IMG/VR virus record: IMGVR_UViG_3300037189_007451
Location: 1-31,999 of that record
DNA from: a virus
Length of the DNA stretch: 31,999 nt
Strand: one strand, 5' to 3'
The notes below the pieces were generated by a model. That model was not told the origin of the DNA. It saw nothing but the letters and a program-made list of their open reading frames with translations, and ran no database searches. Made by a program: the position numbers and the translations under genes. Below, piece after piece: positions 470 to 29,270 of this stretch; the stretch's first letter is position 1, and every line of letters starts with the position of its first letter.

Positions 470-477
470 TATTTATC
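470..477 (-). promoter_or_regulatory. T4-type late promoter motif GATAAATA
   Basis: The minus strand reads GATAAATA here, one base from the T4 late consensus TATAAATA. It overlaps the TAA stop codon (473-475) of the multi-glycosyltransferase gene. With usual late-promoter geometry the first transcribed base would be near 464, on the start codon of the 58-aa ORF, so it may serve the dsbA-like gene or produce a leaderless message. Confidence 0.45.
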
Positions 478-3904: not shown

Positions 3905-4006
3905 AATAATATATACCTTATTTTTTACTTGCGAAAATATTTTTACTATTGTAAGCTCAATGTAAATATTCCATTATTATATAATAAATTTTTTAGAGAG
4001 TCAAGA
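3905..4006. promoter_or_regulatory. Divergent intergenic region (likely promoter region)
   Basis: This 102-bp, very AT-rich stretch separates the minus-strand multi-glycosyltransferase gene from the plus-strand hldE-like operon, so promoters for both directions are expected here. On the plus strand TGTAAATA at 3961-3968 is one mismatch from the late consensus, and a TATAAT hexamer sits at 3980-3985 without a good -35 partner. AAAATATTTT at 3934-3943 is a perfect palindrome, and 3936-3946 pairs imperfectly with 3962-3970. None of these is decisive. Confidence 0.35.
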
Positions 4007-5173: not shown

Positions 5174-5522
5174 GGAAATACCAAAAGGCTGGGGTAAAGA
5201 AGTTATTATCGCCCATAATGAATTATATTGTGCCAAGATGTTATGTTACGATCGTGCTGGTAGTACTAGCAGTATGCATTTCCATAAGAATAAAGATGAG
5301 ACGTTTTATGTACAGAAAGGTTCTTTTGAATTGATCACTATTGATACTAATGATGCTAAACAATATTCTCATATATTAACTGTAGGGGATACATGGCGTT
5401 TACGTCCTTTGGATCTACATCAGGTAAAAGCTTTAGAAAATGATTCTGTTATATTTGAAGTGAGTACTTTTGATGAACCTTCAGATAATTATCGTGTAAT
5501 ACCGGGAGATAGCCAGAAATGA
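5166..5522 (+). CDS. Cupin-fold sugar-metabolism protein
   Basis: A 118-residue single-domain cupin. The metal-binding motif 1 is clear as SMHFHKNKDETFYVQKG (His38, His40, Glu45), followed by the small glycine-bounded strand set and motif 2 around RPLDLHQVKAL (His85). It resembles the small cupins related to mannose-6-phosphate isomerase/guanylyltransferase C-termini that occur in polysaccharide clusters. The reaction is not decided by the sequence: isomerase, epimerase or a sugar-binding role are possible. It sits inside the heptose operon, overlapping hldE by 8 bases (ATGATTAA) and the HAD gene by 4 (ATGA), so translation is likely coupled and its substrate is plausibly a sugar phosphate or nucleotide sugar of that pathway. 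Confidence 0.82.
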   Translation: MIKEIPKGWGKEVIIAHNELYCAKMLCYDRAGSTSSMHFHKNKDETFYVQKGSFELITIDTNDAKQYSHILTVGDTWRLRPLDLHQVKALENDSVIFEVSTFDEPSDNYRVIPGDSQK

Positions 5523-5833
5523 AATATATGGTTGATATAGATGGAACTATCTGTACAACAACTATTAATAGTAACTATATCTATGCTGAACCTTTTGTTT
5601 CCAGGATCAAGCATTTTAATGATCTATACGATCAAGTTCATGAGATACATTATTGGACTGCCCGTGGGGGTAATTCTGGGAAAGATTGGTCAGAAGTAAC
5701 TAAAGATCAATTTTTAAAATGGAATGTAAAATATACATCCCTTAATTTTAAAAAACCATCATATGATATCTGGATCGATGATAAAGCACAACATGTGGAT
5801 AGCTATTTTAATGATATTAATAACCGGAAGTGA
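5519..5833 (+). CDS. Small HAD-family phosphatase (possible GmhB-like step)
   Basis: A 104-residue HAD phosphatase with all core motifs: DIDGT at residues 6-10 (Asp6 nucleophile, Asp8 acid/base), WTARGG with Thr47 as motif II, a lysine before the last motif (about Lys79) and IDDKA with Asp87/Asp88. It lacks a large cap domain and is much shorter than classical GmhB (about 190 aa). Located between hldE/cupin and hldD, it could remove the C7 phosphate from heptose 1,7-bisphosphate, the step GmhB does between the two HldE reactions. That assignment is by position only; a general sugar-phosphate phosphatase is equally possible. It overlaps the cupin stop by 4 bases and the epimerase start by 23 bases. 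Confidence 0.82.
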   Translation: MKYMVDIDGTICTTTINSNYIYAEPFVSRIKHFNDLYDQVHEIHYWTARGGNSGKDWSEVTKDQFLKWNVKYTSLNFKKPSYDIWIDDKAQHVDSYFNDINNRK

Positions 5834-6668
5834 TGGATTTATAGGATCTCATCTAGTTCGTAAAGTACATGATAATGTTATATCTGTTAATATAAACAAT
5901 GCATACTCATCTCTAGAGGTTATAAACTGGAATGAAGTAACGCATATCTATCATCTAGGAGCGATATCTAGCACTACTGAATTAGATATAAACAGGATAC
6001 ATGAGTATAATATTAGATATTCTCTAGAATTGTTTGAGATTGCTATTAAGTATGGAATACCAGTAACTTATGCTAGCAGTGCATCAGTCTATGGTAATAG
6101 CTTTACCTATGCGATCAATCCTTTGAATTTTTACGCTCTATCAAAAGCTACAATTGATATATGGGTATTGGATAATATCAATCGATTTTCTAAGATTGTT
6201 GGATTAAGATTTTTTAATGTTTACGGAGACGGTGAAGAGCATAAAGGTAGCCAAGCTAGTCCATTGTGTCAGTTTACAAAATCTGCTATTGAAACGGGTA
6301 ATATAAGAGTATTTGAAAGTTCTGATATCTGTATTAGGGATTTTATTTCAGTTAATGATGTTGTTGAATGTATATTGACCGAAATGCCATCTGGAATATA
6401 TGATGTTGGAACTAGTGATCCTGTTTCTTTTTTAGATGTGGCAAAACTAGTAGCAGAGAAATATAGCGCAGATATAAAAGAGATACCATTTCCTAAAAAT
6501 TTAAAAAACAAATATCAGTTTTACACCTGCGCTAGAAAACATTTTAATAAACAATTCCAGTCAGTGGCTGATTACTTAACGCTCGTTCCCAATATTATCA
6601 TCACTAAGCCGAACATCCTTCTTCCTATTAGTAATAGTAGTTCCTTCAAACCGATCATAAGCATATAG
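5811..6668 (+). CDS. hldD: HldD-like ADP-heptose 6-epimerase (extended SDR)
   Basis: HldD converts ADP-D-glycero-D-manno-heptose to the L-glycero form used in LPS cores. The protein opens MILITGSDGFIGSHLVRK, an NAD(P)-binding GxxGxxG site, followed by SSASVYGNS near 89-97 and the catalytic pair in FYALSK (Tyr108, Lys112). Features specific to HldD rather than other epimerases are LRFFNVYGDGEEHKGSQAS, FESSDICIRDFISVNDVV and EIPFPKNLKNKYQFYTCA, all matching my memory of the E. coli enzyme. Start chosen at ATG 5811 because the Rossmann strand begins there; in-frame ATGs at 5793 and 5763 exist. The normal end is near SVADYL (residue 255); about 30 further residues lie where the gene overlaps the opposite-strand GT25 gene. 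No GmhA isomerase is visible, so the first substrate would come from the host. Confidence 0.88.
   Translation: MILITGSDGFIGSHLVRKVHDNVISVNINNAYSSLEVINWNEVTHIYHLGAISSTTELDINRIHEYNIRYSLELFEIAIKYGIPVTYASSASVYGNSFTYAINPLNFYALSKATIDIWVLDNINRFSKIVGLRFFNVYGDGEEHKGSQASPLCQFTKSAIETGNIRVFESSDICIRDFISVNDVVECILTEMPSGIYDVGTSDPVSFLDVAKLVAEKYSADIKEIPFPKNLKNKYQFYTCARKHFNKQFQSVADYLTLVPNIIITKPNILLPISNSSSFKPIISI
6576..6668. other. 93-bp antisense overlap of two convergent coding ends
   Basis: The 3' ends of the hldD-like gene (plus) and the GT25 gene (minus) share this stretch, each coding in its own direction. On the epimerase side the overlap codes for residues 256-285, which lie beyond the usual HldD end. 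On the GT25 side it codes for DVRLSDDNIGNER and the residues before. There is no room for a terminator between the two operons. Confidence 0.8.
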
Positions 6669-7286: not shown

Positions 7287-9030
7287 TGCTTATATTTCGC
7301 ATCTTCATATCTAGCTTGTTAACAGCATCGTGTGCTTCTTGTGTTGTGTATCGACCTGGCTTATGTACCTGTATCAAGATCTTAGTTGATAAAATCACGT
7401 TAGATAGATGATTCATAGCGTATTCTAATTGTTCTTCTTTAGCCTGTCCTGATTCAACTGCCTTTTGCCAAGCATCGGTAAATTCATACTTAACATCACA
7501 TACTTCAATATCAATATCATGCAAGAAAGCTAGATAGCTATCGCTATCGCTTGCTACGATCTTTTCATAACTACGCTTCTTATCAAACAAGCGGAATGTA
7601 TTTGGTGTTATCACACGAACATGTGATGGATCGTCCCAGGCTATTTCACAACGATGATGCGGCACTTGGATCTCCCACACTGCTCCGTTATTAGAGATGC
7701 GGTACATTTCTTTGACGATATCGATGAAGTTAACACCGTCGTGCCCGAGATGTTCTAGTATATCCTTGGCTACGATATGACCATATTCATTATCTGGCCA
7801 TGGCCACGACTTGCTGTTGAGTTCTACAATCTCGTCTGGATTGCATAAGTCAGAAGCATCAACATTGTGGAAATCATCAAACTTCTTAAATCCACAACCT
7901 AAGTTCAATCTCTTTAGTTCCTTGTCTTGTGAAGGATGTTCTAGGAAATTTAAACCAAATCTAGCTTCAAAGGCACGATATAGATTTTGGAATGTATCGT
8001 TCCATACGCCTTTCTTCTTCTGTCGGAAGAGAGTGACTGATTTATAATATGGACTAGTATTTGAATAAGGAGCTCCTAGCGCCCATGTGTGATATGGCAA
8101 TATAGGAACTATTACCCAAGTTTCTTTACCCATAGCAGCACTGATATGTGCCACACTAGTGCATGATGTAATAACTATATCTAGTTTAGATATAGCAGCC
8201 ATAGTATCTTCCCAAGAAATTAATAGATGTTGCAAATCAATGATATTTTCTGGTAGATCGATTAGATTGTTATCTTTTTGCAAACTGTATACTTGTATAT
8301 CATCATATTTGGCTAATTCAGTGATAAAATTTTCTGGAAACTTACGGAATTGTTGATGTTCAAATTTTGGATTTCCTGCCCATCGTATTCCTACCTTTAC
8401 TTTCTTGTCAGTGCGTATAAATTCACTCCAAGCTTCGACAGATTTTGAACTTGGAGACATATATGGTCCTGAAGGGAGATCATCAAATGTATGACCACAT
8501 AACCAACCTGCACTGAACCCTGGGATCCAATAATCATGTGTAACTTTGTTAGATTCGGCTCTAGTGATACACTGATCAACCCCTTCGATCCTGCTAATAA
8601 CTGAGAACAAAGATGGATCACAAGCTACATAAACTTTTCCAGCACCTAGACGATTTTTTAGTGAAGTAGCAAATCTAGCATGGATAAATTCATCACCATA
8701 ACCACCTTCTAGTGATAAGATAACACCTTTCCCCTCCATATCGTGCTCATTTGGATTAAAAATTGGAGCTGATGTCTTTAACGGAGGGCTACCGTATACA
8801 CTGATAAATCTCCCATTTTCAAGTAGTTGGCATCCTTCTTGATATTGGTTTTGTTGCAATAAAAACCAACCTCGGTTAAAGCTATGTCTAACCCACATCT
8901 CCGGATTTGGATTCCCTTCAGGATCTAATATTCCATCGGGTCCCATTGCTTGAAGCTTTTCGGATGTTTCCCAAGCCTCATCGAAATTTCCTTCGAGCAT
9001 CAGTTTTAATTGAAGATCGATATCATGCAT
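7279..9030 (-). CDS. TPR - GT9 heptosyltransferase-type - SAM methyltransferase fusion
   Basis: Three parts can be read in 583 residues. Residues 1-95 form a TPR-like helical region (LQLKLMLEGNFDEAWETSE, FNRGWFLLQQNQYQEGCQLL). Residues 100-350 match GT9-like transferases that carry TPRs: VILSLEGGYGDEFIHARFA, VKVGIRWAGNPKFEHQQFRK at 211-230, a donor-site region SCTSVAHISAAMGKETWV at 289-306, then LPYHTWALG and SPYYKSVTLFRQ. GT9 includes the ADP-heptose transferases. Residues 373-560 are a class I methyltransferase: LNLGCG at 375-380 (SAM loop), an acidic end in NVDASD, and KDILEHLGHDG at 422-432. The start is fixed by TTAAGGAGAATACT before ATG. The gene lies 31 bp downstream of the giant adhesin gene on the same strand and overlaps GT25 by 8 bases. 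Acceptor and methylated group are unknown. Confidence 0.82.
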   Translation of the reverse strand: MHDIDLQLKLMLEGNFDEAWETSEKLQAMGPDGILDPEGNPNPEMWVRHSFNRGWFLLQQNQYQEGCQLLENGRFISVYGSPPLKTSAPIFNPNEHDMEGKGVILSLEGGYGDEFIHARFATSLKNRLGAGKVYVACDPSLFSVISRIEGVDQCITRAESNKVTHDYWIPGFSAGWLCGHTFDDLPSGPYMSPSSKSVEAWSEFIRTDKKVKVGIRWAGNPKFEHQQFRKFPENFITELAKYDDIQVYSLQKDNNLIDLPENIIDLQHLLISWEDTMAAISKLDIVITSCTSVAHISAAMGKETWVIVPILPYHTWALGAPYSNTSPYYKSVTLFRQKKKGVWNDTFQNLYRAFEARFGLNFLEHPSQDKELKRLNLGCGFKKFDDFHNVDASDLCNPDEIVELNSKSWPWPDNEYGHIVAKDILEHLGHDGVNFIDIVKEMYRISNNGAVWEIQVPHHRCEIAWDDPSHVRVITPNTFRLFDKKRSYEKIVASDSDSYLAFLHDIDIEVCDVKYEFTDAWQKAVESGQAKEEQLEYAMNHLSNVILSTKILIQVHKPGRYTTQEAHDAVNKLDMKMRNISND

Positions 9031-9039
9031 AGTATTCTC

Positions 9040-9066
9040 CTTAATATAGTAGTATTATATATTAAG
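9040..9066. promoter_or_regulatory. AT-rich inverted repeat at the RCC1/GT9 gene junction
   Basis: CTTAATATA (9040-9048) and TATATTAAG (9058-9066) are perfect 9-bp inverted arms around a 9-base loop. In minus-strand RNA the hairpin includes the end of the giant adhesin gene (stop 9062-9064) and touches the strong TTAAGGAGAA ribosome site of the GT9-methyltransferase gene. It could modulate translation of that gene or act as a weak stop. It lacks a GC-rich stem or U-run, so it is not a classical terminator. Confidence 0.35.
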
Positions 9067-12000
9067 AAGATGATATAGTCAATGCGAAATTGATATCAGC
9101 TCTCGTTGCTCCTATAGCTGCCCATTTTGATGTACCAACAACAACTATTGATGAATATACGGCTGTATTATTCTGTGCTAGTTGCCCTGATGCATTATTA
9201 GATCCCCAGAGCCATAATGAACCATCTGACTTAATTGCTGCTAGCGTAGATCCGTTGTTAGTAAGGCCTGCTGTTACCCAACTTCCTTGATTTGCATCTA
9301 TTGGTGTGAATGTGTATGTGGTTAATCCAGTAGGACTTCCACCCGGACCGTAAAGGTATAAGGCACCTTTGGTATCGATAGCTACTGAGTTACGCCCCAT
9401 AGCCGATATTGATTTAAATGCATTATTGGTATATGGTGAGCTTATTAATGCAGGTGCTACAGTAACTGTATACCCATTATACCCCCAGTAATACAATTTA
9501 CCGAATTTATCAAGGGCTATTACATGTGAAGCCCCACCTGATACAGATCTAAAGGATCCACCAGTTAATACTTGTGAAGGAGCACTTCTGTTAGCTGTAT
9601 CTCTAACACCTAAGCGTCCATCTCCATTATATCCAGTAAAAAATACGTTTCCTGAAGGATCCGATAAAGCTATAAAAGCATCCCCACTTGCTACTGCTGA
9701 CCATGAATAAAGATATCCACCAACTGCTCTTGAAGACACTAGTGTAGGAGAACTGCGAGAAGCAGTATCATAAATACCTAACGTTCCGTTAGTATTGTTT
9801 CCCCATACATATGCATTACCAGCAGCATCCAATGCTATCATTCCTCTAGTACCACTTCCTGCATCGACTGTTACAAATGATGTTGTTGTTGGTATTAAGT
9901 TATAATCATACTGATTAAACCCTCCTGATCTACTGTAGTGGCCACCTAATGTTTGTCCTGCTACTCTCAGATATCCACTATTATCTAGATATCCGTACAT
10001 TGAAACACCTGTTTGTGCTGTTCCTTTTGGTAAAACAGCAGATCCATTAGTGATTGAAGATATCTGTGTCAAGTTTGATCTAGCTATATTTGATCCGCTT
10101 AAATTGGCATACCCTATATCACCTGTAAAGTAATAGTTTTGATTTGAATCTACAGCAATCGTTCCACTAGCCAATGCACTAACTGATACCCATGAAATAC
10201 CTACTCCAATTTGAGTTGGAATACTAGTATTCAATATATCACCTGTTCCGAGCTGGCCGGTAGTGTTTAACCCCCATGCCCATAATGATCCATTGAATGC
10301 GATAGCTGCTGCATGATACCCTCCCATTGATACCATTGTCCATGATCCTGGTAGATTAGTATATGTATTACTAGGTGCGATCATATTTGGATAGTTCCTA
10401 GTAGTAGATCCACCATCGCCGGCAAGTCCAGCAGTACCTTGACCCCAGGTCCACAATCTTCCGATCGCATCAATAGCTACAGTACTGCCGTTTCCTCCAA
10501 AACCTGAGCTTCCTCCGCCGCCCTGTCCTCCCATTGATATCATAGTCCATGAACCGTTATATCCATACGCTGTAGAAACCTGTACTGGAGACCTTCCAGT
10601 GTTTGTATTACTGAGTCCTAATTGACCATTATAATTATCACCCCATCCCCATAGAGTTCTATCAGTTTTTATTCCCAACACTGATGGATAGCTTAGATTT
10701 CCTCTTGCTTCTACAGCAATCCAACTACCTGGAATCTGCACCGGATTAGATCTATTTAAGTTATAATTTTCACCGATAGCATAACCCTGACCAATTCCAG
10801 TATATCCCCAAGTCCAAAGTGTTCCGTCGGTTTTAATAGCAGCAACAACACCATCTCCTGATACTGTAGTCCAGCTTCCGGGTATCTGATATCCAAGGTC
10901 ACTAGCGCCCATTACACTATTATTACCTAGCTGACCCAAGTTTCCAGCACCCCAAGCCCATAATCTACTATTAGTATCAACAGCCCAGGTATTACTAAAT
11001 CCTATCATCACTGAAGCCCAAGTCTTAGTTCCAACTTGTACTGGGGAACTTATAGTATAAACACTAGTTCGGGTATGTCCTAATCCTAATTCTCCAGTAC
11101 CATTAAATCCTGACGAGTACATCTTACCATCGTTTGTGATCACAAATCCGTTAACGTCAGCTATTACTGATTGTTTAATGCTATAACCACTCATTACTTG
11201 CGTAGCAAGTCCCGTTGACGAAGACCATCCTATACCTAACTGACCATTGGTACCAATTCCCCAATTCCACAGCGTTCCGTCTGATCTTAATGCAGATACA
11301 CTGCTTGATTTACATGATACACTAGTCCATGAATAATATGAATTATAATGTGTTAGCACAGGATAAAAAGGTGCGCTATGACTACCACCGTCTAATTGGT
11401 GTATTCTACCATTACTAGTATCGCCCCACGCATATATATGAGTTTGTGCATCTGATCTAATAAATCCACCATTAGCTGAAAAACTATCATCTGTACTGAG
11501 TAAGTTTGTTCCTGATAACACTGCTACAGGGCTGGATCTAGTAGTATTTGTTCCATCCCCTGGATATGTTCCTCCTAAACAGTATAGCTGTCCACCGCTT
11601 ATTCCAACTATATTGCTAGTACCAGCATGTATGCCGCTCCAGCTCAATGTTCCAACCTGTGTCGGCGTGGATCTGTTTAGAATATCACCTAGGCCTAATT
11701 GGCCAACGTTATTATATCCCCAAACCCATAGATTTCCATTTGTATCGATAGCTGCTGCGTGGCTTACTGCTATACTTACTTGAGACCAGCGTCTAGTTGA
11801 ATTCGACATCACCTGTACCGGCAATGATCTATTAGCTATATCGCCTAACCCTAATTGTCCAGCAGCATTGTTACCCCAGCTCCATAGTGTACCATCATTC
11901 CTAATAGCCATTACAGCATTAAGACTACATGAAGCTGTACTCCAGATATATGCGTTATATGGTGAAGCTAGTGCAGTAGGAGTTGTTATAGGATTGGCGA

Positions 12001-15000
12001 CAGAATTAACTCCGCCCTCTCCGCTGCTATTTGTCCCCCATGTAAACATAGTCCCATTGATAGATATTGCTATTCCGCCTTGATTTTCTTTTGCCTTTAC
12101 TAACGTAAAACTAGTTCCAGATGCAATCTGCACAGGAGCAGATCTGTCACTGCCAACGCCACCGAACCCTAGATATCCAGAACCGCCATTATCATATCCC
12201 CATGCCCATAATGTTCCATTAGTTTGTATACCAAACACATTGCCATCTCCACCAGAAGCAACGCTTGAATATAACCCTGCAACTTGCACTGGCGACGATC
12301 GTTGAACGACATCATTTTGACCAAGTTGCCCCCAGTTATTATACCCCCAAGCCCATAAGCGACTTTGATCATCTATAGCAAATCCACAAGTGTTCCTTCC
12401 ACCATACACTATCTTAACATAGTTTTTATCAGATGTTGCATTTGGAATTGGACCTAATTTAGTAGGAAGAAGTGTTTGTGTTCCACTAGTAACTGGTGCT
12501 ACTCCGTTTTGTAAAGCGCCGCCCCATCCCCATAGAAGACCTGTTGTATCTATACCAAAATAATTATTAGCCCCAGCTGATATCATTGACCAACTGACTC
12601 CTACTGGAGTACTAACTAGAACTGGTGAAGTATAAGTGGTCGATGTATTATCACCGACGCTATTACCCCATCCCCATAATCTACCAATCGTATCTAAAGC
12701 AAAAAGAGCTGTAGTTCCTAGTCCAATCATAGTAAAACTTTTGTCAGTTATTACTTGGCTTGGAGCAGATCTATTATTAGCAGTAGCATCTCCAGGGAAT
12801 AAGCTACTAGCTCCAGATCCCCACATCCATAATTGTCCACCACTGTTTAATGCCATAACAACACTGGTGTTTAATAATACCTGTCTCCAACTATACGCTA
12901 TAACAACTGGACTTGATCTACTAGTATTTGTTCCATCACCAACGGCGTAAGCTCCTCCATATCCCCATGCCCACAATGTTCCATCATTTCTAACAGCAAC
13001 AGTCGAATTATCAGTAGTTGAAATAGCGTTCCAACTATTAGTACCGATTTGTACAGGACTTGAACGATTAATGACAGTGTTGTCACCTAATTGTCCAACA
13101 GCATTATTGCCCCAAGCCCAAATTCTACCGTCTGATTTTAGGGCTACTATATGACTTGCTCCACTTGCAACATCAGTCCAAGATCCTGCTATCTGTACAG
13201 CAGTTGATTTTAAATCTATTCCTAGCTCTTCATTTCCGCTACTTCCCCAAATATTAATTGAATTTGTGCTAGTAATTGCACCAGCGACAAATATACCTGC
13301 TAATAATCTGTTTCGTGTAGTGCTATACCCTGTACCAATCTGTACTGGGCTTGATCTATTAACAAGAGTACCACTACCTAGCTGATAATTAGCATTATTT
13401 CCCCAAATCCACACTCCTCCGGCATTATCAACCGCAACTGCATGTGATGGACCTGCTGCTATTGAAATAAAGACTTTTCCAGTACCAATAAGGACAGGAC
13501 TTGATTTATTAACAATCGTATTATCACCAAGTTGACCAACAGTGTTAATTCCCCATGCAAATAATCGACCAGTTGTATCAATAGCATAAAAATTGTTACT
13601 TCCTGTGGTAACCATCGTCCAACTGCTAGAACCAATTGCTACCGGACTTGAACGATTAACAATCGTACTATCGCCAAGCTGTCCATATGTATTATCACCC
13701 CAAGTAAGCAAACGACCTAATGCATCTATTCCTGCCATAGCTGTCTCGCTAACTGCTACAGCAGACCAACTGCTAATACCTATCTTATTAGGATACCATC
13801 TCCAAGTAGTTAAATCACTAAGTCCGTTACCCAATATTCCGGATTGATTTCCTCCCCAAGTCCACAACCCACCGTCTGTAGTAACACCTGCGTAATTAGA
13901 ACCAATTCCAACTGTAACCATAGTCCAGGACATTTTTCCATAGACCATTGTAGGGGCGCTTCTGCTCACAATAGTGCCATCACCTATACCATAAGTGGCA
14001 TTAGTACCAAATCCAAGCATTGATCCGTCGAGTCTAATTAAAGCACCATTATTAGTTCCGGCACTAACTGCTGTAAAGCTGCTACCTGCACCGATCTGGA
14101 CTGGACTTGAACGATGAATAATAGTACCATCACCTAATTGCCCGCTGTAATTAAATCCCCAAGCATATGCTTTACCATTGATATCTACTGCTATCGTTGT
14201 TGTTGTTGGTGTTGAATCTCCATTAGAACTAACTGCGTTCCAGCTGCTAGTTCCAATTTGTAATGGTGCACCTGGAAATCCAGCCAAGAATTGATTATAT
14301 AGTGTTGTATTTGTAGTACCTGTAGTACCTGCCCAACCATGTAATACACCTGCGCTAGTAAATGCAAGCCCACCAAAATATCCACCTCCACCAAGTGTTG
14401 TATAGCTAGTTCCTGTACCAATCTGCAATGGACTTGATAGTGTTAATACGCCACCAGTTCCTAGCTGGCCACTAGTGCCTAATCCCCAAGCATAGAGTTT
14501 ACCTAGATTATCTATAGCAAATACTTCGTTATTTCTAGTAGAGCCTACTGTAGTAAAGCTAATTCCTAATGGAAGCACAGCAGTTGGAGCAGATTTGCTA
14601 ACAATAGTAAGATCACCAATCTGCCCACTAGTTCCAAGGCCCCATGCCCAAAGTTTTCCTGTGATATCTATTGCGTACGATGTAGTAAGTTTAGCACTGA
14701 CTATAGTAAAGCTACTAGTTGATGATATTGCTACAGGTGAACTTACGCTTAGAGCAGTTACTACAGCAGCATTGCCAATCTGTCCACTAGTACCTAACCC
14801 CCATGTCCATAACTTCTTCAAACTATCGAGGGCGATTATATGTCCAGTTCCAACATCAACAGCACTCCAGCTGCTAGTAGTTGGACCATATTTAACGATA
14901 CTAGGACCACTGATAGCAACATTGTTGTTGCCCAACGCACCGTTAGTAGGGACGCCGCATACTAGCAAAGTTCCAGTAGTACTTATTAGTGCTGTATTGC

Positions 15001-15710
15001 TGATTCCTGCTGCTACTGCGGTCCAACTATAGTTACCTAACCCTACCATCTGTGGATATGAATAAACTACACCCGAATTAAAGAAATTTCCTACAGAGGA
15101 AGTTGTACCATTAGCTCCCCATCCCCATAGATTACCTTTACTATCTACTGCAAAGGTTTGATTTAATCCAGGGAATACAGCAGTCAGCGCCCCATCAAAT
15201 TGTGCAAGTGCCGCAGCGGTAAACCCGTTTGTAACTAATGTTTGGTTAGTTATAGTACCATTACCTAATTGACCACTAGTATTGAGGCCCCATATTCTCC
15301 ATGTTCCAGTACTTTCTCTTGCAGCTATAGTGCTAGCACCAACACTACTATATACTGCGGTATAGCTAGTTCCTGTTCCGATCTGTATCGGTGAACTCTT
15401 TGCACCAGCTGTACCGTCACCGAGGAACGTGTTACTATTTGCTCCCCATCCCCATAATTTGCCAAGTGTGTCTATGGCATAGAATGTTGATTCTCCACCA
15501 ACGGCCGCAATCGCAGTAAAACTACTACCAATAGGCATAGATACTAGTGTAGGACGACTTCTATTGATAGCAGCACCGTCACCGATCTGACCACTAGTAC
15601 CTAATCCCCATGCCCACAATCTTCCAACAGTGTCAATAGCAGCTACAGCATTAACATTTCCGGCTACAGCAGTCCAACTAATAGGAGTACCGTTTCCTGC
15701 TATTGGTAAT
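9062..15710 (-). repeat. 42 tandem RCC1-type coding repeats (six putative propellers)
   Basis: After the second LamG module the protein is built only of RCC1-type units, about 53 residues (about 158 bp) each. Consensus pieces LWAWGxGTSGQxGDG and [10 protein letters not shown] recur, especially in the 13-15.5 kb part where copies are closest to each other. The last units are degenerate, e.g. [12 protein letters not shown] near the C-terminus. Confidence 0.75.
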
Positions 15711-18700
15711 GGATTATTGACCCTAGTAATAGTAATAGCTGTGCTACTATTATCTATAATAGTAGAATTTTGCAATGATAAGAACACAGTTTGGGTAGTT
15801 ATTGCCTGTATATTAGTTCCTGAACTTTGTGTCGTTGTTAATGCACTAGTCGGCAGAGTAAATGCTCCCGTATATACGCCTAATCCCTTGACTATACGGA
15901 AGTTGCTAATATATCCCTTGAATCCTAGTGTACCTACAGTAAGTGCCATTGCTCCGATTGTAGTTATAGTAGTACTACTAATTAAAGTACCTTCTGCATA
16001 TGTAGTTGCTGCTGGATTTTGTACACCATTAACATATTGAGAAGTATTTCCGCTGACCCTACTAAGTGCTACATGATACCAAACACCTGGCGATAGAGCT
16101 GTACTAACTAATCTAGCAGCAGTACTTACATAATATGTTAATAGATATGCAGCATCTATATACCATGCTGGATAAAGACCCTGTGTTGCGGCAGTCCTAC
16201 TATCGTATATATATTGAATGGCGCCATTGTTAGCATTAGTATATATCCAACATTCGATAGTAAAATCACCTGCACCAAAAGCAAATATTGCATTGTTTGG
16301 CATCGATATATATTCAGCACCGCCACTAAATTTAACGCTATATGTACTAGTATTAAACGGTGTAGGATTTACACTAGCTACCTGTACAGGACTTGATTTA
16401 CTAACAACTGTAACATCTCCTAGCTGGCCACTAGTGCCTAATCCCCAAATCCACAATCTACCTATAATATCGATAGCCATACCCTGCGCCGAGCCCGAAG
16501 AGACTATCGAAAAACTACTACCTGCTAATACTTGTACGGGACTTGATCTAGCAATAACAGTATTATCAGCCAACACTCCATTTGAATTGTTACCCCATGC
16601 AAATAATCGACCACTTGCATCGATAGCATATGTCCAACTAGTTCCACTTTCTACCGCACTCCAGCTACTGTTGTTTACTTTAATTATTGAAGGAAAAGTT
16701 GCAACAGTTTGTGGTATACCGATAGCTCCGGAATTGTTAGCCCCCCATGCCCATAATCCGCCATTACTGTCGATTATGTGTCTAACATCAGTTCCACCAG
16801 CTGAGAATTTTTTTCTATCAGTTGGCCATGTAATCGTGCCCATCTGTATTAAACCGTAATTTTGTGCAAACCTATCACTACCAGTAAATGCAGCTCTGCT
16901 ACCGTATACTAATTGATCAGGCATGAGGTTTACTGTCTGCTTGCCCCATCCAAATACTTTACCATCCTGAGTAACAGCTAACCCGCCTAGATCGTTTAAT
17001 GCTACAGCACTCCAAGCTGAACCTGCTGGTCTGCTTGCTGCTATCTGTATTGGAAAATATGTGTTATAGTTTGTTGTGATAGTATTTCCAATTTGATTTG
17101 AAGTGTTTAATCCCCAACCCCATAATGATCCATCTGTTTTAATACCAACGCCATGGCTATCTGTGACATATATCTTGCTCCATGATGTTGGAGATAACGC
17201 AACGCTAGATGGTGTGCTCATGCTTAATGAGTTTATTCCAGTGCCATTAGTACCATAATCACCAGTTCCCCATGTCCATAGAGTCTTATCGGATTTAATA
17301 GCAAAGTTTACGTTGTAAGAACTCGCGATTGAATTCCAACTATTGCTATCAATCATCACCGGATAATACTTGTTAAAAGTAGTATTATCCCCTACTTGTC
17401 CATAATTATTAATTCCCCATGCATATAATTTACCTGTTGTATCTATAGCAACGCTACTGCTCAATCCAGCACTAATCATTGAAAAAGATGTAAATCCAGT
17501 CCTGTTATATGGGAGATGAATCGTATTGGATATAGTAGGAACTCCGAATCTGTATATAGTGGTATTATTAACTGAGTTATCAATAAATGTTGATGACTGT
17601 AATGCTAATATAGCCACTGTTCCAGCTGATACAGTTGTAGTTAGATCGCCAGTTGGTGGAGTGAAGTTTGTGCTATATATTCCACCGCCGTTAATGATAC
17701 GGAGATTAGACATAAATTGTGTTGAATAAGTACTGCCGTTTGGATCTCTACCAACAGTAAGCCTATATGTTCCGATAGGGTTCCAAGGATCGGTATATGC
17801 TCCGATCGAGATACCATTTATGAATATCCTAGTAGTACCTGCTGCTCTTGAAATCGCTATATGATTCCACTGATAAGCTAGAGTATTAAATGCTGTTAGA
17901 ACTATAATCTTATTTGATTGGGTATATCCAACTTCTCCGTTGTAATATATAATGTTAGTACCATCATACAACAATATCATTCTATAATTGGTACTAACAT
18001 TTGATGATAGATCTATCCAATCTTGACGAACGTTTGTACTTGGAATTAGGTATGACCAAAATTCTATAGTCCAATCATTAGTACCAAACGCAAGAGTAGA
18101 TAGATAATCAGTTTGTAAGTAATCAGCAACACCACTAAAAAATACGCTATAAGATGGTGTTCCACTATAGGACATTACTTGTACTGGTGAAGATCTACCA
18201 ACTAGTCCGCCATCACCTAACTGTCCAACAGCATTATTGCCCCATGCCCATAGACTCTTATCAGATCTTATAGCTAAAACATGAAGATCACCTGCTGATA
18301 CTGCGGTCCAAGATCCCATTACTTGTACTATAGTTCCAACACCAGTGGTATTATTACCCATTTGACCACTAGTTGCTAACCCCCAACCATAAAGTCTTCC
18401 AAGAGAATCTATGGCAAATATGTTGCTTACTCCTGCACTAAATGTAGTATAACTATTAGCCGCAAATATAGGAACTGGTGAATTTGTATAATTACTAGTT
18501 GGCCAACCAGGAATCATGCTTGTTGAGTTATCACCCCATGCCCAGATTGACCCATCTGATAATCTACCCGCACCAAAGGCTTTTCCTAGTGAAAGCTGGC
18601 TCCAACTTAATCCAACTTGTACAGGACTGCTTCTAGATTTACCAAAGTCTCCAACCTGCGGATAGAAGTCTATCGACTTCTGTCCACTACCGTTAAGGAG

Positions 18701-19219
18701 AGGATATCCCCAGGTCCATAATTGTCCAAGTGTGTCTATTCCTGCTGATCTATTATAATTGCTTGATATAGCAGTCCAACTCTTAGTAGGTGCAATCGGT
18801 GTTGGAGTAAAAGCAGCATTAACGCTGTTATTACCTAGTTGACCATATGTGTTAGTTCCCCATCCCCATAGAGTACCGTTATCTCTTATTGCCAGTACAT
18901 GATCTCTTGATGGTAAGCTTATTACGGTCCAAGAATTAGTATCTAGTGCAGCTGGTACAGAATAATCACGTGTTAAATTGTCCCCTAACTGCCCATAACT
19001 TCCGTATCCCCAAGTCCAAAGAGTGTTATCGCTTTTAATAGCTGCAACAGTATCGAAAGAACTTACTATTTTCTTCCAATAGGATGCACCAACCTGTACG
19101 GGAGACGATCTATCAGTGATTGGATATATATTTGCCATACCATTAGTCGCACTTCCCCATGCAAATAACTTCTGATATGTATTGTTATATGTGTTAGCTA
19201 ATAATGTGTTATAAAGCAT
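9062..19219 (-). CDS. Giant RCC1-repeat / LamG adhesin, 3385 aa
   Basis: A 10.2-kb gene for a repetitive protein. The recurring unit is about 50 residues with the RCC1 signature: an AIDxxGxLWAWGxNxxGQLGDG core, then SSPVQI and SWTxVSAG. I count 56 such units by their WG-type motif. Seven precede a LamG/concanavalin-like module at about residues 355-570 ([12 protein letters not shown] ... DWTIEFWSY ... FTPPTGDL), seven lie between it and a second LamG at about 960-1170 ([14 protein letters not shown] ... [11 protein letters not shown] ... [15 protein letters not shown]), and 42 follow. RCC1 units usually form seven-bladed propellers, so eight propellers are implied. There is no signal peptide or transmembrane segment. 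In this context it is probably a long tail fibre or other host-recognition adhesin; LamG domains often bind sugars. It starts 7 bases after the tail-assembly-chaperone-like gene. Confidence 0.85.
15710..16345 (-). other. LamG-type module 2 of the giant adhesin
   Basis: Encodes about residues 960-1170. Landmarks: [67 protein letters not shown] and the tail [15 protein letters not shown]. The same landmarks recur in the LamG protein at 22627-26061. Confidence 0.75.
17505..18160 (-). other. LamG-type module 1 of the giant adhesin
   Basis: Encodes about residues 355-570: [65 protein letters not shown] and PPTGDLTTT. It separates the first seven RCC1-type units from the next seven. Confidence 0.75.
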
Positions 19220-19226
19220 GTTTTAT

Positions 19227-19715
19227 CTATTCCGGTTTACTTGGCCAAATTATCTGAGAGATCGAAGTTAAATTGATGTTAGCATATAATTCAGGAAGTT
19301 CTCGTAACAATCTCCTGTATGTTTTCCATGCTTGCATACCTTCTTCAGACATTGTTTCTACTGCATCTGACAACTGTGTCCAGTCGCATTGCTGCAAATA
19401 CATATTTCGCATGGAACGCATCTCCATCATTACTAGATTTTTAATCATATCGTTTGAATCATCGCTTGGTGACAAATCAATTATCTCGATCGTTTCTATA
19501 ACATTGTTATCTTGGAAACTATAATTCGCATTACCACGTGCTTGTGTATACATATCATATGCAGTCTCATCTTCAATAACCTGATACCAACCTAATTCAT
19601 TTAATGCATTGATATCATTAGCTAGGTGATGTAATCCGCTGACATTTTTCCAAGATTCAGGCAAGCTGCTATATATCTCGATATTTCCATCCTGCGCATA
19701 TGCATATTTTGTCAT
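19227..19715 (-). CDS. Phage tail assembly chaperone-like protein
   Basis: A 162-residue protein whose C-terminal half matches the tail-fibre/tail assembly chaperone pattern seen in many phages: MRSMRNMYLQQCDWTQLSDA, then an aromatic helix AWKTYRRLLRELPEL, ending with IIWPSKPE. This R-x-x-R...CDWT...W..YR..LR...WP..P pattern is what I associate with the Phage_tail_APC family. The N-terminal half (TKYAYAQDGNIEIYSSLPES ... LGWYQVIEDETAYD) resembles the start of tail-fibre assembly proteins with a 'W..V' strand. Such proteins are usually encoded next to the fibre they help fold, so the likely client is the giant RCC1 adhesin starting 7 bases downstream, or the Mtd-N protein upstream. Start at ATG 19715 with AGGA ahead of it. 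Confidence 0.75.
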   Translation of the reverse strand: MTKYAYAQDGNIEIYSSLPESWKNVSGLHHLANDINALNELGWYQVIEDETAYDMYTQARGNANYSFQDNNVIETIEIIDLSPSDDSNDMIKNLVMMEMRSMRNMYLQQCDWTQLSDAVETMSEEGMQAWKTYRRLLRELPELYANINLTSISQIIWPSKPE

Positions 19716-19732: not shown

Positions 19733-20248
19733 TTATCTTGCATCTATTATGCTAGCTACTCCGCGCCAAGTAGTGCCACCGTCGTCGGTAATAAACGATA
19801 ATATGTCAGTACCAGTTGCAGTTAGCCCTGGTGCTACTCCAGAAGCCCATTTTACCGACACCGGCCAAGTCATAGCATACGAGCCACCGTTGGTTAGTCT
19901 CAGCACGATTATAGTAACCTTAGCACTAATTACATTTGAAAATGTCCATGTTAGATTAGTTGTAGCAGTCTTGGTAAAATAGTTTCCCTGAGAGCAGTTT
20001 ATATCTGATGCACTTACAGGATCAGCATCGTGTGTTACTATTCCAGTAACATCAATCCTTGAAGGGACAGTAACAGTACCTGTAAGTGTTGGGCTAGCGC
20101 TCTTAGCCATGTATGTTCCGCCTACAGTAGTTCCATCCATCACAGTTAGCGTGTTTAGAGTAGTATCAAATATCAACTCACCTGCTGCTCCTGTAAATGA
20201 TGAAATCTGCGTAGTAGTTCCTCTACGTAGCTGTATCTGTTTAGCCAT
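19733..20248 (-). CDS. Small fibre protein with Mtd-N-like head domain
   Basis: A 171-residue protein. The N-terminus, QIQLRRGTTTQISSFTG then AAGELIFDTTLNTLTVMDG, is the short beta-rich 'RRGT...W..F..A.GE...DT....L.V.DG' domain known from the N-terminus of the Bordetella phage major tropism determinant and many phage fibre proteins, where it serves in attachment or trimerisation. The rest (DINCSQGNYFTKTATTNLTW ... DDGGTTWRGVASI) matches a C-terminal module often found in aquatic phage structural proteins. It has no C-type lectin domain, and no reverse transcriptase is present in the window, so tropism switching is not suggested. The start codon shares a base with the stop of the upstream fibre gene (TAATG), implying translational coupling. 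Confidence 0.75.
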   Translation of the reverse strand: MAKQIQLRRGTTTQISSFTGAAGELIFDTTLNTLTVMDGTTVGGTYMAKSASPTLTGTVTVPSRIDVTGIVTHDADPVSASDINCSQGNYFTKTATTNLTWTFSNVISAKVTIIVLRLTNGGSYAMTWPVSVKWASGVAPGLTATGTDILSFITDDGGTTWRGVASIIDAR

Positions 20249-22200
20249 TATACTATGCTCCCATAATCGTTAGTTGCGGTTACTGTTTCGGGTACCTGTC
20301 CATAATCTTGATTACTAGATTCTGCTGAAACCCACGCACTATTTATGTATATATAAAGCACTCCATCTCCAGTATTATACCAAAGGTCTCCAACAGCCGG
20401 AGTTGCCGGTGCAGTACTTGAAGCAGTCACGCTACTGCCACCGCCACCACCGCCAGTTCCTGCACTGCCAGTATATCCTATAGCAGCATATGCACCATCG
20501 ATACCTTGTGATCCAGTAAAACCAACTCCTTGTGATCCACTATATCCTACAACTGTGCTAGCTGATCCAACAAAGCCAACAGATCCGCTATATCCACGTG
20601 ATCCACTAAATCCTATAGCAGAATAAGCACCAGCTGAACCCGAATATCCAGTTGATCCAAAGTACCCCCAAGATCCAGTGTATCCAACTGACCCCCAATA
20701 TCCTATTACAGTACTTGCTGAACCAGTAAATCCTACTGAACCGCTATATCCAACAACTGTACTAGCTGATCCTGTATAACCTTTAAAATTGCCTACATTA
20801 GTCCAGCCTGTTGTTGGAGTATTGAATATAATAGTACCAGAAGTAGTAAATGCGTAAGTTTTATATCCACCGCTATTTGTATATGTTGGAAAATTAGTTA
20901 CAGTAGAATCGGCTGATACACTCGAGTAACGTATGAGAACAATACCACTACCACCAGCGCCGCCACTACCAGTTCCGTTAAGCGATCCACCGCCACCACC
21001 GCCACCAGTTCCAGCTGATCCAGCATAGCCATTAGTATCACCTCGGCCACCACCACCACCACCAATACCGCCTAATGTGTTTACACCACTAGTTCCCCCG
21101 CCGCCACCGCCACCAGCATAGTATACTGAATTCCATCCTAGGATACCAGCACCACCATTACCGGGAGTATTAGCACTGGCATTTCCACCAGCAGCACTGG
21201 CACCACCACCACCTGCTGCTGCGCCAGCACCATCTTGTGCCCAACCAGTACCGCCATCATATCCTTGACGTGTTGCGCTTACATATGACGATCCAGGATA
21301 AACACCTTGACCATATGTTTGTCCTTGCCCTCCCCCTGCACCTGGTGCACCGCCGCCACTACCACCATTAAGTCCCGGACGCATAGTGTTATAATTGCCA
21401 CCACCACCGCCACCGTACGCAGTTACTCCAGAGAATGATCCGCCAGTTATTACTGAATCAGTTCCTGAACCTGCTGCGTTTGTTCCAGCAATACCACCAG
21501 CACCACCATTACCAACAGTAATAGTATATGTCACATTTGGCGTAATTGATACTGATGAAGCTGATATTACACCACCACCACCACCACCACCACCAAGATG
21601 TCCACCACCACCACCTCCACCAGCAACGACGAGATAATCAATTGTACTAGGACCACCTACTGATTGGGGCTTCCAAATCCATAAAGTACCGTCGTCAGTT
21701 ATATATCCATCCCCGCTACTGCCAGTGTAGGAGGTAGGATATCCTGGGATAGATGTATATGTACTTACGCTACCTATTAAGTTAAGAAACGCCGAAGATC
21801 CAACTGACCCGGTATATCCAGCAGCAGTACTAGCTGAACCAGTATATCCAGCACCTATTGATCCAGTATATCCGTATGAACCCCAATATCCACCTGAACC
21901 AGTATAGCCAGCACCAGTTGAACCAGTATAACCTAATGAACCCAATGATCCAGTATAGCCTCTAGCAGCATATGCACCATCAGCACCAACTGACCCGGTA
22001 TATCCAGCAGCAGTACTTGCAGAGCCAGTATATCCCGCACCGGTTGATCCAGTATATCCAGCAGCAGTACTTGCAGAACCAGTATATCCAATCGTAGCAT
22101 TAACAGCTTGCCAGACAGTACCATCCCACTGCCAGGACAAATTGTTAGCAGTATGCACATCATTAACGTTTGGTGAACTTGGGAAATTAATTGCTGGCAT
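20248..22200 (-). CDS. Mixed collagen-like and glycine-rich tail-fibre protein, 650 aa
   Basis: The order of parts is: a head (1-36) with FPSSPNVND and NLSWQWDGTVWQAVN; a collagen-like stretch of GYTGS units (37-135); a linker with TDDGTLWIWKP (about 168-178); a glycine-rich domain (186-425) from DYLVVAGGGGGGG to GSGIVLIRYS; a strand-rich spacer; a second collagen-like stretch (473-586) with GYWGS, GYFGS and GFTGS variants; and a short tail with TAPATPAVGDLWYNTGDG and YIYINSAWV (about 597-625). Gly-X-Y repeats are expected to form a trimeric triple helix, and the glycine-rich domain resembles those in phage receptor-binding tips. It is probably a side or distal tail fibre. AAGGTAAC precedes the ATG, and a late-promoter motif lies at 22223-22230. 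Confidence 0.82.
   Translation of the reverse strand: MPAINFPSSPNVNDVHTANNLSWQWDGTVWQAVNATIGYTGSASTAAGYTGSTGAGYTGSASTAAGYTGSVGADGAYAARGYTGSLGSLGYTGSTGAGYTGSGGYWGSYGYTGSIGAGYTGSASTAAGYTGSVGSSAFLNLIGSVSTYTSIPGYPTSYTGSSGDGYITDDGTLWIWKPQSVGGPSTIDYLVVAGGGGGGGHLGGGGGGGGVISASSVSITPNVTYTITVGNGGAGGIAGTNAAGSGTDSVITGGSFSGVTAYGGGGGGNYNTMRPGLNGGSGGGAPGAGGGQGQTYGQGVYPGSSYVSATRQGYDGGTGWAQDGAGAAAGGGGASAAGGNASANTPGNGGAGILGWNSVYYAGGGGGGGTSGVNTLGGIGGGGGGRGDTNGYAGSAGTGGGGGGGSLNGTGSGGAGGSGIVLIRYSSVSADSTVTNFPTYTNSGGYKTYAFTTSGTIIFNTPTTGWTNVGNFKGYTGSASTVVGYSGSVGFTGSASTVIGYWGSVGYTGSWGYFGSTGYSGSAGAYSAIGFSGSRGYSGSVGFVGSASTVVGYSGSQGVGFTGSQGIDGAYAAIGYTGSAGTGGGGGGSSVTASSTAPATPAVGDLWYNTGDGVLYIYINSAWVSAESSNQDYGQVPETVTATNDYGSIV
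20443..20784 (-). repeat. GYTGS-type collagen-like coding repeats (distal block)
   Basis: Short in-frame repeats whose plus-strand DNA shows CCAGTATATCC-type words every 15-33 bases. They encode GYTGS, GYSGS, GFTGS, GYWGS and GYFGS with SASTVVGY interruptions. Confidence 0.85.
20926..21645 (-). repeat. Glycine-rich coding region
   Basis: Runs of GGN codons (plus strand: ACC/GCC/TCC triplets such as CCACCACCACC) encode GGGGGGG-type tracts within residues 186-425 of the 650-aa fibre. This composition, not a separate gene, explains the long proline-rich open frame on the plus strand here. Confidence 0.85.
21796..22092 (-). repeat. GYTGS-type collagen-like coding repeats (proximal block)
   Basis: Encodes residues 37-135 of the 650-aa fibre: GYTGS units joined by TGA, VGA, LGS or ASTAA spacers. 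Several copies of the ASTAAGYTGS unit are nearly identical at DNA level. Confidence 0.85.
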
Positions 22201-22626: not shown

Positions 22627-25600
22627 TTATACTGGAAACGGATACATGTTGACCATGTCTGGCGATCCTGTACGAGTTAAGGCAAGTTTATTATTAGAAG
22701 CATCAAATAGTGTATTATATTGGCATGTTAACAAACTAGTTTGCGTAGTGATAGCCGCAATGTTTGTTCCTGATGATTGTGTTGCTTTTAGTGGTGATGT
22801 TGGAGGAGTAAATGCGCCGGTATATACAGCTACACCTTTAACAACACGCATGTTTGAGATATATCCTGGAAAAGCATATGCTGTATCACTTGAACCTCCG
22901 AATCTAACTGATGTGGTATTAATGCTATAATCAGCAGCCGAATCTGTAGTACCTTGTACACCATTAAGAAAGATTTTCCAAGTTGCGGATTGTCTTGTTA
23001 CTGCAAGATGATACCATGTGTTATTTTGTAGGTATGGAGTTCCAGTGGTTGCCCCAGGATATCTAAGATATACGTTTGTTGCATAACCAGGTCTAGAAAC
23101 GCTTAACCTATCAGTTCCCATTTGTATAAATATTCCAGCAATATTAGCTCCACTATCACCAAACCATGCCATCGGCCCGACTGATTCTAACGGTAGTATT
23201 CTGTAACTATTGTCTAAATATATCCACGATTCAACAGTAAAATCACCAGTACCAAATGCAAAGTTAGATGCGTGGGATGTATCAACATATTGATTTGTAG
23301 AAGTTGTATTTAATTTTAAACTGTAGTTTTTCTGAGCATAGTTTACACCGGAAACAATACCAGAAAATACATCAGTTAAATATGTTTGAACAGTACCACC
23401 ATTCGTTATGGTAAACTTATTAGTTGATGCGTCAACAATATTAGCATATTGACAAGTCAACAAAGTTGTTGATGTTCCGGTAATAGCCGATATGTTAGTA
23501 CCGCTTGATTGTGTTGCTGCCAATGGTGTTGCAGGTGGAGTAAAATTTCCTGTATAAACTGCTGTACCAATAACAATACGAGCATTAGTTATATATCCAG
23601 CGAAATAATTTCCAGCAGTTGTACCATCTAGACCAATGTAGATATCTTTTTGAGTTCCATTATAATAGACTAAAGCAGTTGAACCTATGTTAGATGTAGT
23701 TGAATCAGCAACTCCGTTAACATATAGTGTTATAGTTGTTCCATTCCTAACCACCGCAATGTGATACCAAGCATTTGCTGTTATTGATGTTGTTGTTGCC
23801 GTAACAGTTACTTGTGTGGTGCTTCCGGTAACATATCTAAAAACTAAACGCCCAGAAGAATTAACTATAATATAGAATTGTCCACCAACGACATACCACG
23901 CAGAAAGTATATAACCTTGTTTTGATATGTCTGTTACATATATCCAACTTTCTATAGTAAAATCGTTTGCACCAAACGCTTGATTAGCGTTATATGGAAC
24001 ACTAAGATATTGACTGGTTCCATTGAACGACGCATAATAATTACCAAATGGATTCTGCGATGATGCAGGTGTAGAACCTATATTTGTCATAGCCAAATGA
24101 TTTGTTGATGCATCATATAATTCAGCATATTGACATGTTAATAATTGTGTATTATTGACAGCAGTTAGAGCTGATGTTGATGGTGTAAAGTTAGAAGAAT
24201 AAAGTGCTGAACCGTTAACATATCTAAAGTTTGAAATATATCCTGACCATGGTGCATTTGGTCCGTATGTCGTTTTTCCAATAACATAACCATTAGTACC
24301 ACCTATAGTTCCACTTAATGTTGTTGATGATACTCCATTGGCTCCTGCCGATGCGGTTCTTAATACTCCATTGACATACAGATACAATGTTGTTCCACTC
24401 CTAACAAGCGCAATATGATTCCATGCGTTTGCGGTTATAACTCCCCAAGAAGGCCCGCCAACAGTGTACTGATCTAAAGTTAAAGTATAAGAAGCAGCAA
24501 GATATAATTGATATCTACCACTAGCTTCAGTGCTACCAATCGACCATATTCCCATGTTAGTCGTATATGCTGTAGCATAGACCCAACATTCAACTGTAAA
24601 ATCACCAGTAGCAGCTACGCTAGATGCTGTAGTTAAATACTGACTGCTACCATTGAACGACATGCTATAATCACCAAATGGATTTTCCATTCTGACGACT
24701 GCTGTACCAGTGTTTGTTATAGTAAATGCGTTTGATGAACTATCAGCGATAGTTGCTCCGTTAATTAATAGTGATGTGCCTGTTATAGACGCTAGATTAT
24801 CTGTTGGTGGTGTGAAGTTTGTTCCAGTTGTGTATATTGCTGTGCCTTTTATGATACGTAAGTTACTGACATATCCGCCAATTAATTGGCCTTGTCCTGC
24901 TCCAGTTGTTAAAGCAGTTCTAGCACTGGTATATTGATTGCCTATGACCAATGCATTTCCAACATCAGTCATTGTCAATGCTTGTGATGTAGTGGTAACT
25001 TGTTTACCATTAACAAATGTGGTAATAGTTGCACTAGACCTTATTGCTGCAAGATGATACCACGTATTGACATCCAATGTTCCAAAACTAATTGATTGAA
25101 CTGTTGATGGGCCCGTATTATCGCCAATTAGAAATCCATATGTATTAACTCCAGTTGACTGAAAAGCATAAGAGTGATATCGGGTACTGGCATTTCCACC
25201 TTTACCAAAAAGATATTCGCCATTGGCTGACGCAGTATTTTTATAGTACCAACATTCAATTGTAAAATTACCAGAAGTTAAATCAAGTGCAGTATTATGT
25301 GCTATAACTAATCCACTGGCGGCAGTGTTAAAATATACGCTGTATGCCTGTGTTGAATAGCTAGTATCTGCAACTGTAACTGTATTTGATGTCCCTACGA
25401 TAGTGCCGGCTGTTGACCCAGTGCGGATCTGTATGATGATAGTTTCACTACCTTCGGTTGATAAATCACTCAATAAAGTCTTCGTAAGCGTTCCGTTATC
25501 ACTTGTAATAGCGATACTACCAGAGTTTAAATTATCGCTAAAATCACCAGCACTAGTTGTACCACTATTAGTATAATAAAGTGTACCTGTTCCGAATCCA

Positions 25601-29262: not shown

Positions 29263-29270
29263 TATTTATC
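29263..29270 (-). promoter_or_regulatory. Late promoter motif GATAAATA
   Basis: GATAAATA on the minus strand, overlapping the TAA stop (29266-29268) of the protease gene. The expected transcript start near 29257 gives a 21-base leader with AAAGGTAA before the 286-aa fibre start, the best-fitting late promoter in the window. Confidence 0.55.

Follow-up and report, generated by a model that had tools for sequence, protein, structure and literature searches.

The minus-strand gene at 9062–19219 encodes a protein of 3,385 residues that is, with a probability of about 0.75, a host-adsorption fibre or adhesin of a jumbo-type tailed phage, its 56 RCC1 units forming eight closed seven-bladed propellers. 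All positions refer to the window, i.e. the complete stretch of 31,999 nucleotides analysed (IMG/VR record IMGVR_UViG_3300037189_007451). We infer the closure of every ring, the location in the virion and the ligand. In the proposed arrangement, the propellers would be strung like beads along one chain, each ring starting at a C strand and being closed velcro-fashion by the A and B strands at its end, and in each of rings 1 and 2 a LamG domain would be inserted into the loop between blades that precedes the closing blade. The propellers may act as spacers within a semi-rigid chain and/or as multivalent binding surfaces. The LamG domains, concanavalin-like judging from their sequence, are probable carbohydrate binders, and a chaperone encoded upstream probably assists assembly.

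The gene is a single unbroken ORF. Pfam searches with the protein returned RCC1 (PF00415; E 1.7e-199) and the RCC1-like domain (PF25390; E 0), both exceeding the curated cut-offs, and two stretches of Laminin_G_3 (PF13385; E 5.2e-21); no families other than RCC1 and LamG were found with Pfam or PHROG. The ORF is also intact on a second contig (L005), identical to the window in 31,997 of 31,999 bases, and no exact DNA repeats of 35 bp or more were found inside it. The 56-unit count is therefore real and not an assembly-repeat artefact.

When the chain was split at the LWxWG strand, 47 literal and nine degenerate WG anchors were obtained, i.e. 56 units, with an anchor spacing of 45–67 residues except across the LamG inserts (275 and 279 residues). 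A circular-profile Viterbi procedure, written for this analysis and independent of the WG splitting, gave the identical 56 anchors plus three spurious ones within LamG. A broader phage profile recovered 55 of the 56 units, the one missed being unit 51. The arrangement 7 + LamG + 7 + LamG + 42 put forward in the sequence-only reading is thus confirmed by WG motif, and its total equals 8 × 7.

The strand order in each unit is C (LWxWG), D (SSPVQV), A (SWxxVSAG) and B (HxxAI). Sixteen residues precede the first strand, C of unit 1, and the chain stops directly behind the last one, B of unit 56, which is the canonical RCC1 ‘velcro’ frame at both termini. The three segments contain 7, 7 and 42 C/D strands but 6, 7 and 43 A/B strands, and 56 complete units are therefore obtained only if LamG is treated as an insertion. 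LamG1 lies in unit 7 and LamG2 in unit 14, each between strands D and A, at the inter-blade connection half a unit ahead of the ring boundary. A MAFFT alignment with 14-unit homologues had every WG column in register and showed LamG1 as a clean insertion at the D-to-A connection of unit 7. The LamG modules had been thought to sit exactly at propeller boundaries; this is not quite the case, as both are inside a unit. The gene and its parts are as follows.

9062–19219, minus strand: giant RCC1 gene, 3,385 aa, 56 RCC1 units and two LamG inserts
18173–19171, minus strand: ring 1, from strand C of unit 1 to strand D of unit 7, aa 17–349 (seven-blade geometry in the model)
17495–18172, minus strand: LamG1 insert, aa 350–575, between D and A of unit 7 (PF13385; an insertion relative to all 14-unit homologues)
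17432–17494, minus strand: strands A and B of unit 7, aa 576–596 (12-residue motif; frame as in the L136 modules described below)
16373–17431, minus strand: ring 2, units 8–14 up to strand D, aa 597–949 (unit count and model)
15683–16372, minus strand: LamG2 insert, aa 950–1179, inside unit 14 (PF13385, best stretch aa 966–1110)
15623–15682, minus strand: strands A and B of unit 14, aa 1180–1199 (unit split)
14501–15622, minus strand: ring 3, units 15–21, aa 1200–1573 (count; lag-7 similarity to rings 2 and 4)
13418–14500, minus strand: ring 4, units 22–28, aa 1574–1934 (count; lag-7 similarity)
12362–13417, minus strand: ring 5, units 29–35, aa 1935–2286 (count; lag-7 similarity to ring 4)
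11276–12361, minus strand: ring 6, units 36–42, aa 2287–2648 (count only; low-confidence model)
10139–11275, minus strand: ring 7, units 43–49, aa 2649–3027 (count only; low-confidence model)
9065–10138, minus strand: ring 8, units 50–56, aa 3028–3385 (count only; low-confidence model)

Strands A and B of unit 7 (residues 579–593) would close ring 1 against the N-terminal C and D strands (16–22 and 37–48), and those of unit 14 would close ring 2. Ring 8 is the most divergent of the rings and ends on strand B (15-residue motif).

An alternative frame can be drawn in which the rings are made of whole ABCD blades without velcro closure. The LamG domains would then lie at exact boundaries, ring 1 would be two strands short and ring 8 would have two to spare. 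This frame takes the WG count of 7/7/42 at face value, and the 42-unit part has the normal tight B-to-C hairpins, six residues being the rule in relatives, where the B-to-C junction has this length at nearly all unit boundaries. It would, however, leave half-blades unpaired at both ends. Moreover, in the C-to-B frame the single-ring seven-unit phage proteins have each strand seven times, so that velcro closure is required of them, and the linkers and collagen stalks of relatives are found between B and C and not between D and A. About 15 junctions of at least 12 residues were seen in multi-ring proteins. Ten of these follow unit 7, 14 or 21 (in L142, L062, L221, L144 and L145, twice in L053 and three times in L136); the remaining long B-to-C junctions are in L141, L089 and L133. 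We consider the whole-blade frame quite improbable and retain the C-to-B frame with velcro closure.

The L136 protein (7681–15015, minus strand; contig IMGVR_UViG_3300034105_004893) is a homologue of 2,445 aa. It consists of four modules of exactly seven units, each running from C to B and set apart by collagen stalks or a short linker, and it carries a Peptidase_S74 chaperone domain, a tail-fibre hallmark, at its C-terminus. It constitutes a natural single-ring series within one fibre. In the 14-unit protein of L062 (9593–11896, minus strand) the inter-ring linker resembles by eye the N-terminus of the single-ring S-SRM01 gp337; the sequence suggests a linker as expected from the fusion of two single-ring genes.

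The RCC1 repeat normally closes into seven-bladed rings. The structure of residues 1–949 was predicted with AF2 using an alignment of 29 sequences; alignments extending past LamG2 or containing LamG rows were out of register and were left out. The RCC1 parts of the model mostly have pLDDT values of 70–96, and LamG1, for which the alignment had no homologues, has values of 25–40. A Foldseek comparison of the model with the PDB returned UVR8 first (TM 0.84–0.88 of target); the units of rings 1 and 2 thus curve as in a seven-bladed ring. In the C-to-B frame the closure strands of these two rings would pair; the Foldseek match is given without the matched query residues. Structure prediction of successive slices had been expected to show seven-bladed rings throughout, and this geometry was obtained for rings 1 and 2; AF2 of rings 6–8, based on nine sequences, was too low in pLDDT (mean 49.8) to be interpreted.

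Pattern scans of viral contigs yielded 310 complete, non-redundant ORFs with RCC1-type motifs, 250 of which, the window protein excluded, were countable without gaps. The WG count was a multiple of seven in 241 of the 250, with 7 units in 213 ORFs, 14 in 18, 21 in six, 28 in two, and 42 and 49 in one each. The other nine ORFs had 5 (three ORFs), 6 (four), 8 (one) and 13 units (one). Among ORFs with at least ten units, 28 of 29 were multiples of seven (p ~5e-23 against 1/7). The unit count of 56 is not due to chance, and the window protein is an extreme example of this rule. The L135 protein has 28 units. Outside the gap-free set, L161 has 35 units (1,797 aa), and L200 has 55 detected units and one evident missed unit, i.e. 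56, in 2,870 aa and has no LamG. Real or probable exceptions with many units are L163 (19), L141 (25–26) and L282 (13). A rule specific to phages was considered and rejected, as bacterial RCC1 ORFs from the same pattern search comply in 28 of 35 cases; the rule thus reflects the seven-bladed ring. On a contig of 49,857 bases (G003), three adjacent giant RCC1 ORFs (L132, L133 and L134) extend over about 35 kb, the largest open frame having 5,169 aa and the others 3,105 and 3,286 aa. They possibly represent one frameshift-broken gene larger than that of the window protein, of phage or bacterial origin; larger RCC1 arrays may exist.

The regularity of the array had been attributed to duplication of whole propellers, and part of this stands. 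When the similarity matrix of the 56 units was double-centred and 27 lags were compared, lag 7 came out best (family-wise p = 0.01). The signal comes from units 1–35 (z = 4.7), and the adjacent ring pairs 1–2, 2–3, 3–4 and 4–5 each fit best in register, which supports duplication within rings 1–5. Units 29–56, however, gave no lag-7 signal, and a tree of the units labelled by ring position did not show the anticipated period-7 clustering (p = 0.48). The period-7 test of other multi-ring proteins gave no significant lag 7 (mean z 0.3), and whole-ring duplication can therefore not be claimed generally from unit similarity. Close relatives are more informative. Pairwise comparison of L130 (49 units) with L161 (35 units) gave offsets of 0, −7 and −14, which at the sequence level amounts to gain or loss of whole rings. 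L130 and L223 (42 units) align at offset −11 over a block of 8 units and at offset 0 to either side of it, in sequence terms an out-of-phase replacement with the count undisturbed. These patterns suggest that whole rings are gained or lost, that blocks can be shuffled out of phase and that selection keeps multiples of seven.

The ring boundaries of the window protein are not marked by a special linker, including those after units 21, 28, 35, 42 and 49 in the 42-unit part, and the best PF25390 stretch (aa 1821–2108) is offset in phase from the rings proposed here. The ring phase in the 42-unit part consequently rests on counting. As an alternative to separate closed rings, the 42 units after LamG2 might form a single continuous superhelix of blades, or the rings might differ in blade number and reach a multiple of seven only in sum. 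The plain boundaries would fit such an arrangement, as would the missing lag-7 signal in units 29–56 and the low confidence of the model of rings 6–8, and 7+8 propellers have been predicted for a 15-blade WD40 protein (PMC9218822). A superhelix, however, does not require the multiples of seven seen in nearly all relatives with at least ten units. In addition, L136 isolates seven-unit modules, and the 14-blade WRAP forms two seven-bladed rings (PMC6805158). We regard a superhelix or mixed rings as unlikely. The eight seven-bladed propellers claimed from the sequence are well supported by the count, by the multiple-of-seven rule and, for rings 1 and 2, by the model; for rings 3–8 they are predicted.

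More generally, phage RCC1 fibres might be quantised bead-chains in which blocks are exchanged out of phase, the total is held at a multiple of seven by selection, folding counts the blades, and whole rings are gained or lost. The window protein would then be the eight-ring, linker-free case, with each ring closing at a six-residue B-to-C junction. We propose this tentatively, with the odds somewhat against it.

The giant gene is located in a fibre cassette and is accompanied by a gene for a fibre chaperone. The neighbouring genes of the cassette are listed below.

19227–19715, minus strand: tail assembly chaperone gene (PF16778 Phage_tail_APC, E 7.5e-13; PHROG tail fiber assembly)
19733–20248, minus strand: small fibre gene, 171 aa, with a Major tropism determinant N-terminal domain (PF18454 Mtd_N, E 1.1e-12; PHROG tail fiber)
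20248–22200, minus strand: glycine-rich protein with GYTGS repeats (sequence; PHROG 2295)
22627–26061, minus strand: 1,144-aa protein with four LamG domains (four PF13385 stretches; PHROG virion structural and baseplate wedge families)

The Phage_tail_APC gene lies directly upstream of the giant RCC1 gene with a gap of 7 bases. The GYTGS-repeat proteins of the cassette are collagen-like. The 3,385-aa protein has no recognisable virion anchor, with 16 residues preceding ring 1 and nothing following ring 8, and neither a trimerisation nor an S74 domain.

Other genes of the window were recorded as well. The 1,144-aa protein has two apparent Calx-beta-like repeats ahead of its LamG domains. A subtilase (Peptidase_S8; 29266–31032) is encoded among the fibre genes and is perhaps involved in fibre processing. 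Sugar genes are present on the opposite (plus) strand to the cassette at 3929–6668, namely a PfkB kinase fused to a cytidylyltransferase (heptose kinase/adenylyltransferase-like), a cysteine-dioxygenase-like protein, a phosphoheptose isomerase match and a nucleotide-sugar epimerase. The product of 473–3904 has 1,143 aa and contains at least two domains of glycosyltransferase families 1 and 2. A tRNA-Glu (CTC) called by ARAGORN at 841–933 is inside this glycosyltransferase ORF and is probably spurious.

RCC1 genes of other phages are found in comparable positions. The three copies of S-SRM01 (gp335/337/344) are neighbours of genes for the baseplate and tail fibres. In the T7-like phage PollyC the RCC1 gene (gp38) is in the fibre position, between internal virion protein and holin genes, and its product shows a weak match to the T7 tail-fibre N-terminus, below the curated cut-off. 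Phages of the PBECO4/121Q group contain several RCC1-like genes, and mass spectrometry detected GAP32 gp1 in virions (PMC5259590). The near-identical contig encodes a DNA polymerase whose closest counterparts are those of the jumbo phages Phosso and Atu_ph07 and of the PBECO4/121Q group. A cyanophage origin, prompted by the synteny with S-SRM01, was set aside in view of this polymerase.

The name ‘regulator of chromosome condensation’ would imply an intracellular DNA-condensing or regulatory protein rather than a fibre. PHROG places the family in the category ‘DNA, RNA and nucleotide metabolism’, and a role in DNA organisation was speculated by the authors of phAPEC6 (PMC7247149). The PHROG name, however, is inherited from eukaryotic RCC1, and the location in the fibre cassette, the LamG domains, the homologue with collagen stalks and an S74 chaperone and the fibre-gene position in PollyC all argue against such a role, which we judge very improbable. 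An adsorption fibre is the preferred reading.

The RCC1-like domains of UVR8, RCC1 and HERC RLD share with the window protein the repeat, the seven units per ring, the start at strand C and the end at strand B. They comprise one ring per chain instead of eight, lack the two LamG insertions, and function as GEF or photoreceptor, whereas the window protein is in a viral fibre context. The same repeat family is present in the tailed phages S-SRM01 (gp335/337/344), BUCT-ZZ01 (14 units), GAP32 (gp1), 121Q, PBECO4 and phAPEC6; the proteins checked have one or two rings, compared with 56 units and LamG in the window protein. The L136 fibre, encoded on a 165 kb viral contig (G005), contains several seven-unit RCC1 modules in the same frame as the window protein but has collagen stalks or linkers between the modules and an S74 end, neither of which is found in the window protein.

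Outside this family, WRAP of Nostoc (PDB 2YMU), a 14-bladed WD40 protein, consists of two seven-bladed propellers (PMC6805158). It likewise has tandem blades without dedicated stalks, but is of WD40 lineage with 14 near-identical blades, compared with 56 diverged RCC1 blades. The largest case in a survey of highly repetitive propellers is a NACHT protein of Penicillium camemberti with 47 blades (PMC9218822). It is also a very long tandem array, but its WD40 blades were amplified by two-blade units and their number is not a multiple of seven. The survey described a continuum of blade numbers and amplification without a counting system (PMC9218822).

The architecture had been called unusual for a phage fibre, which holds for its size but not for its kind, RCC1 propellers being common in such genes. 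RCC1 propellers, phage RCC1 proteins, LamG in fibres and tandem propellers in one chain (WRAP, PMC6805158) are already known. New are the size (56 units, whereas the survey of highly repetitive propellers reports no more than 47 blades; PMC9218822), the LamG insertions at the blade that closes the ring in two consecutive rings, and the counting rule together with the indels of entire rings among phage relatives.

The phage RCC1 proteins represent a natural data set in which the counts range between 7 and 56 and are nearly always multiples of seven; it includes relatives differing by whole rings and others with blocks swapped out of phase. Whole-propeller copying versus blade counting by folding thereby becomes directly testable. 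The findings also suggest that phage proteins labelled ‘regulator of chromosome condensation’ are adsorption fibres and not DNA-condensing factors.
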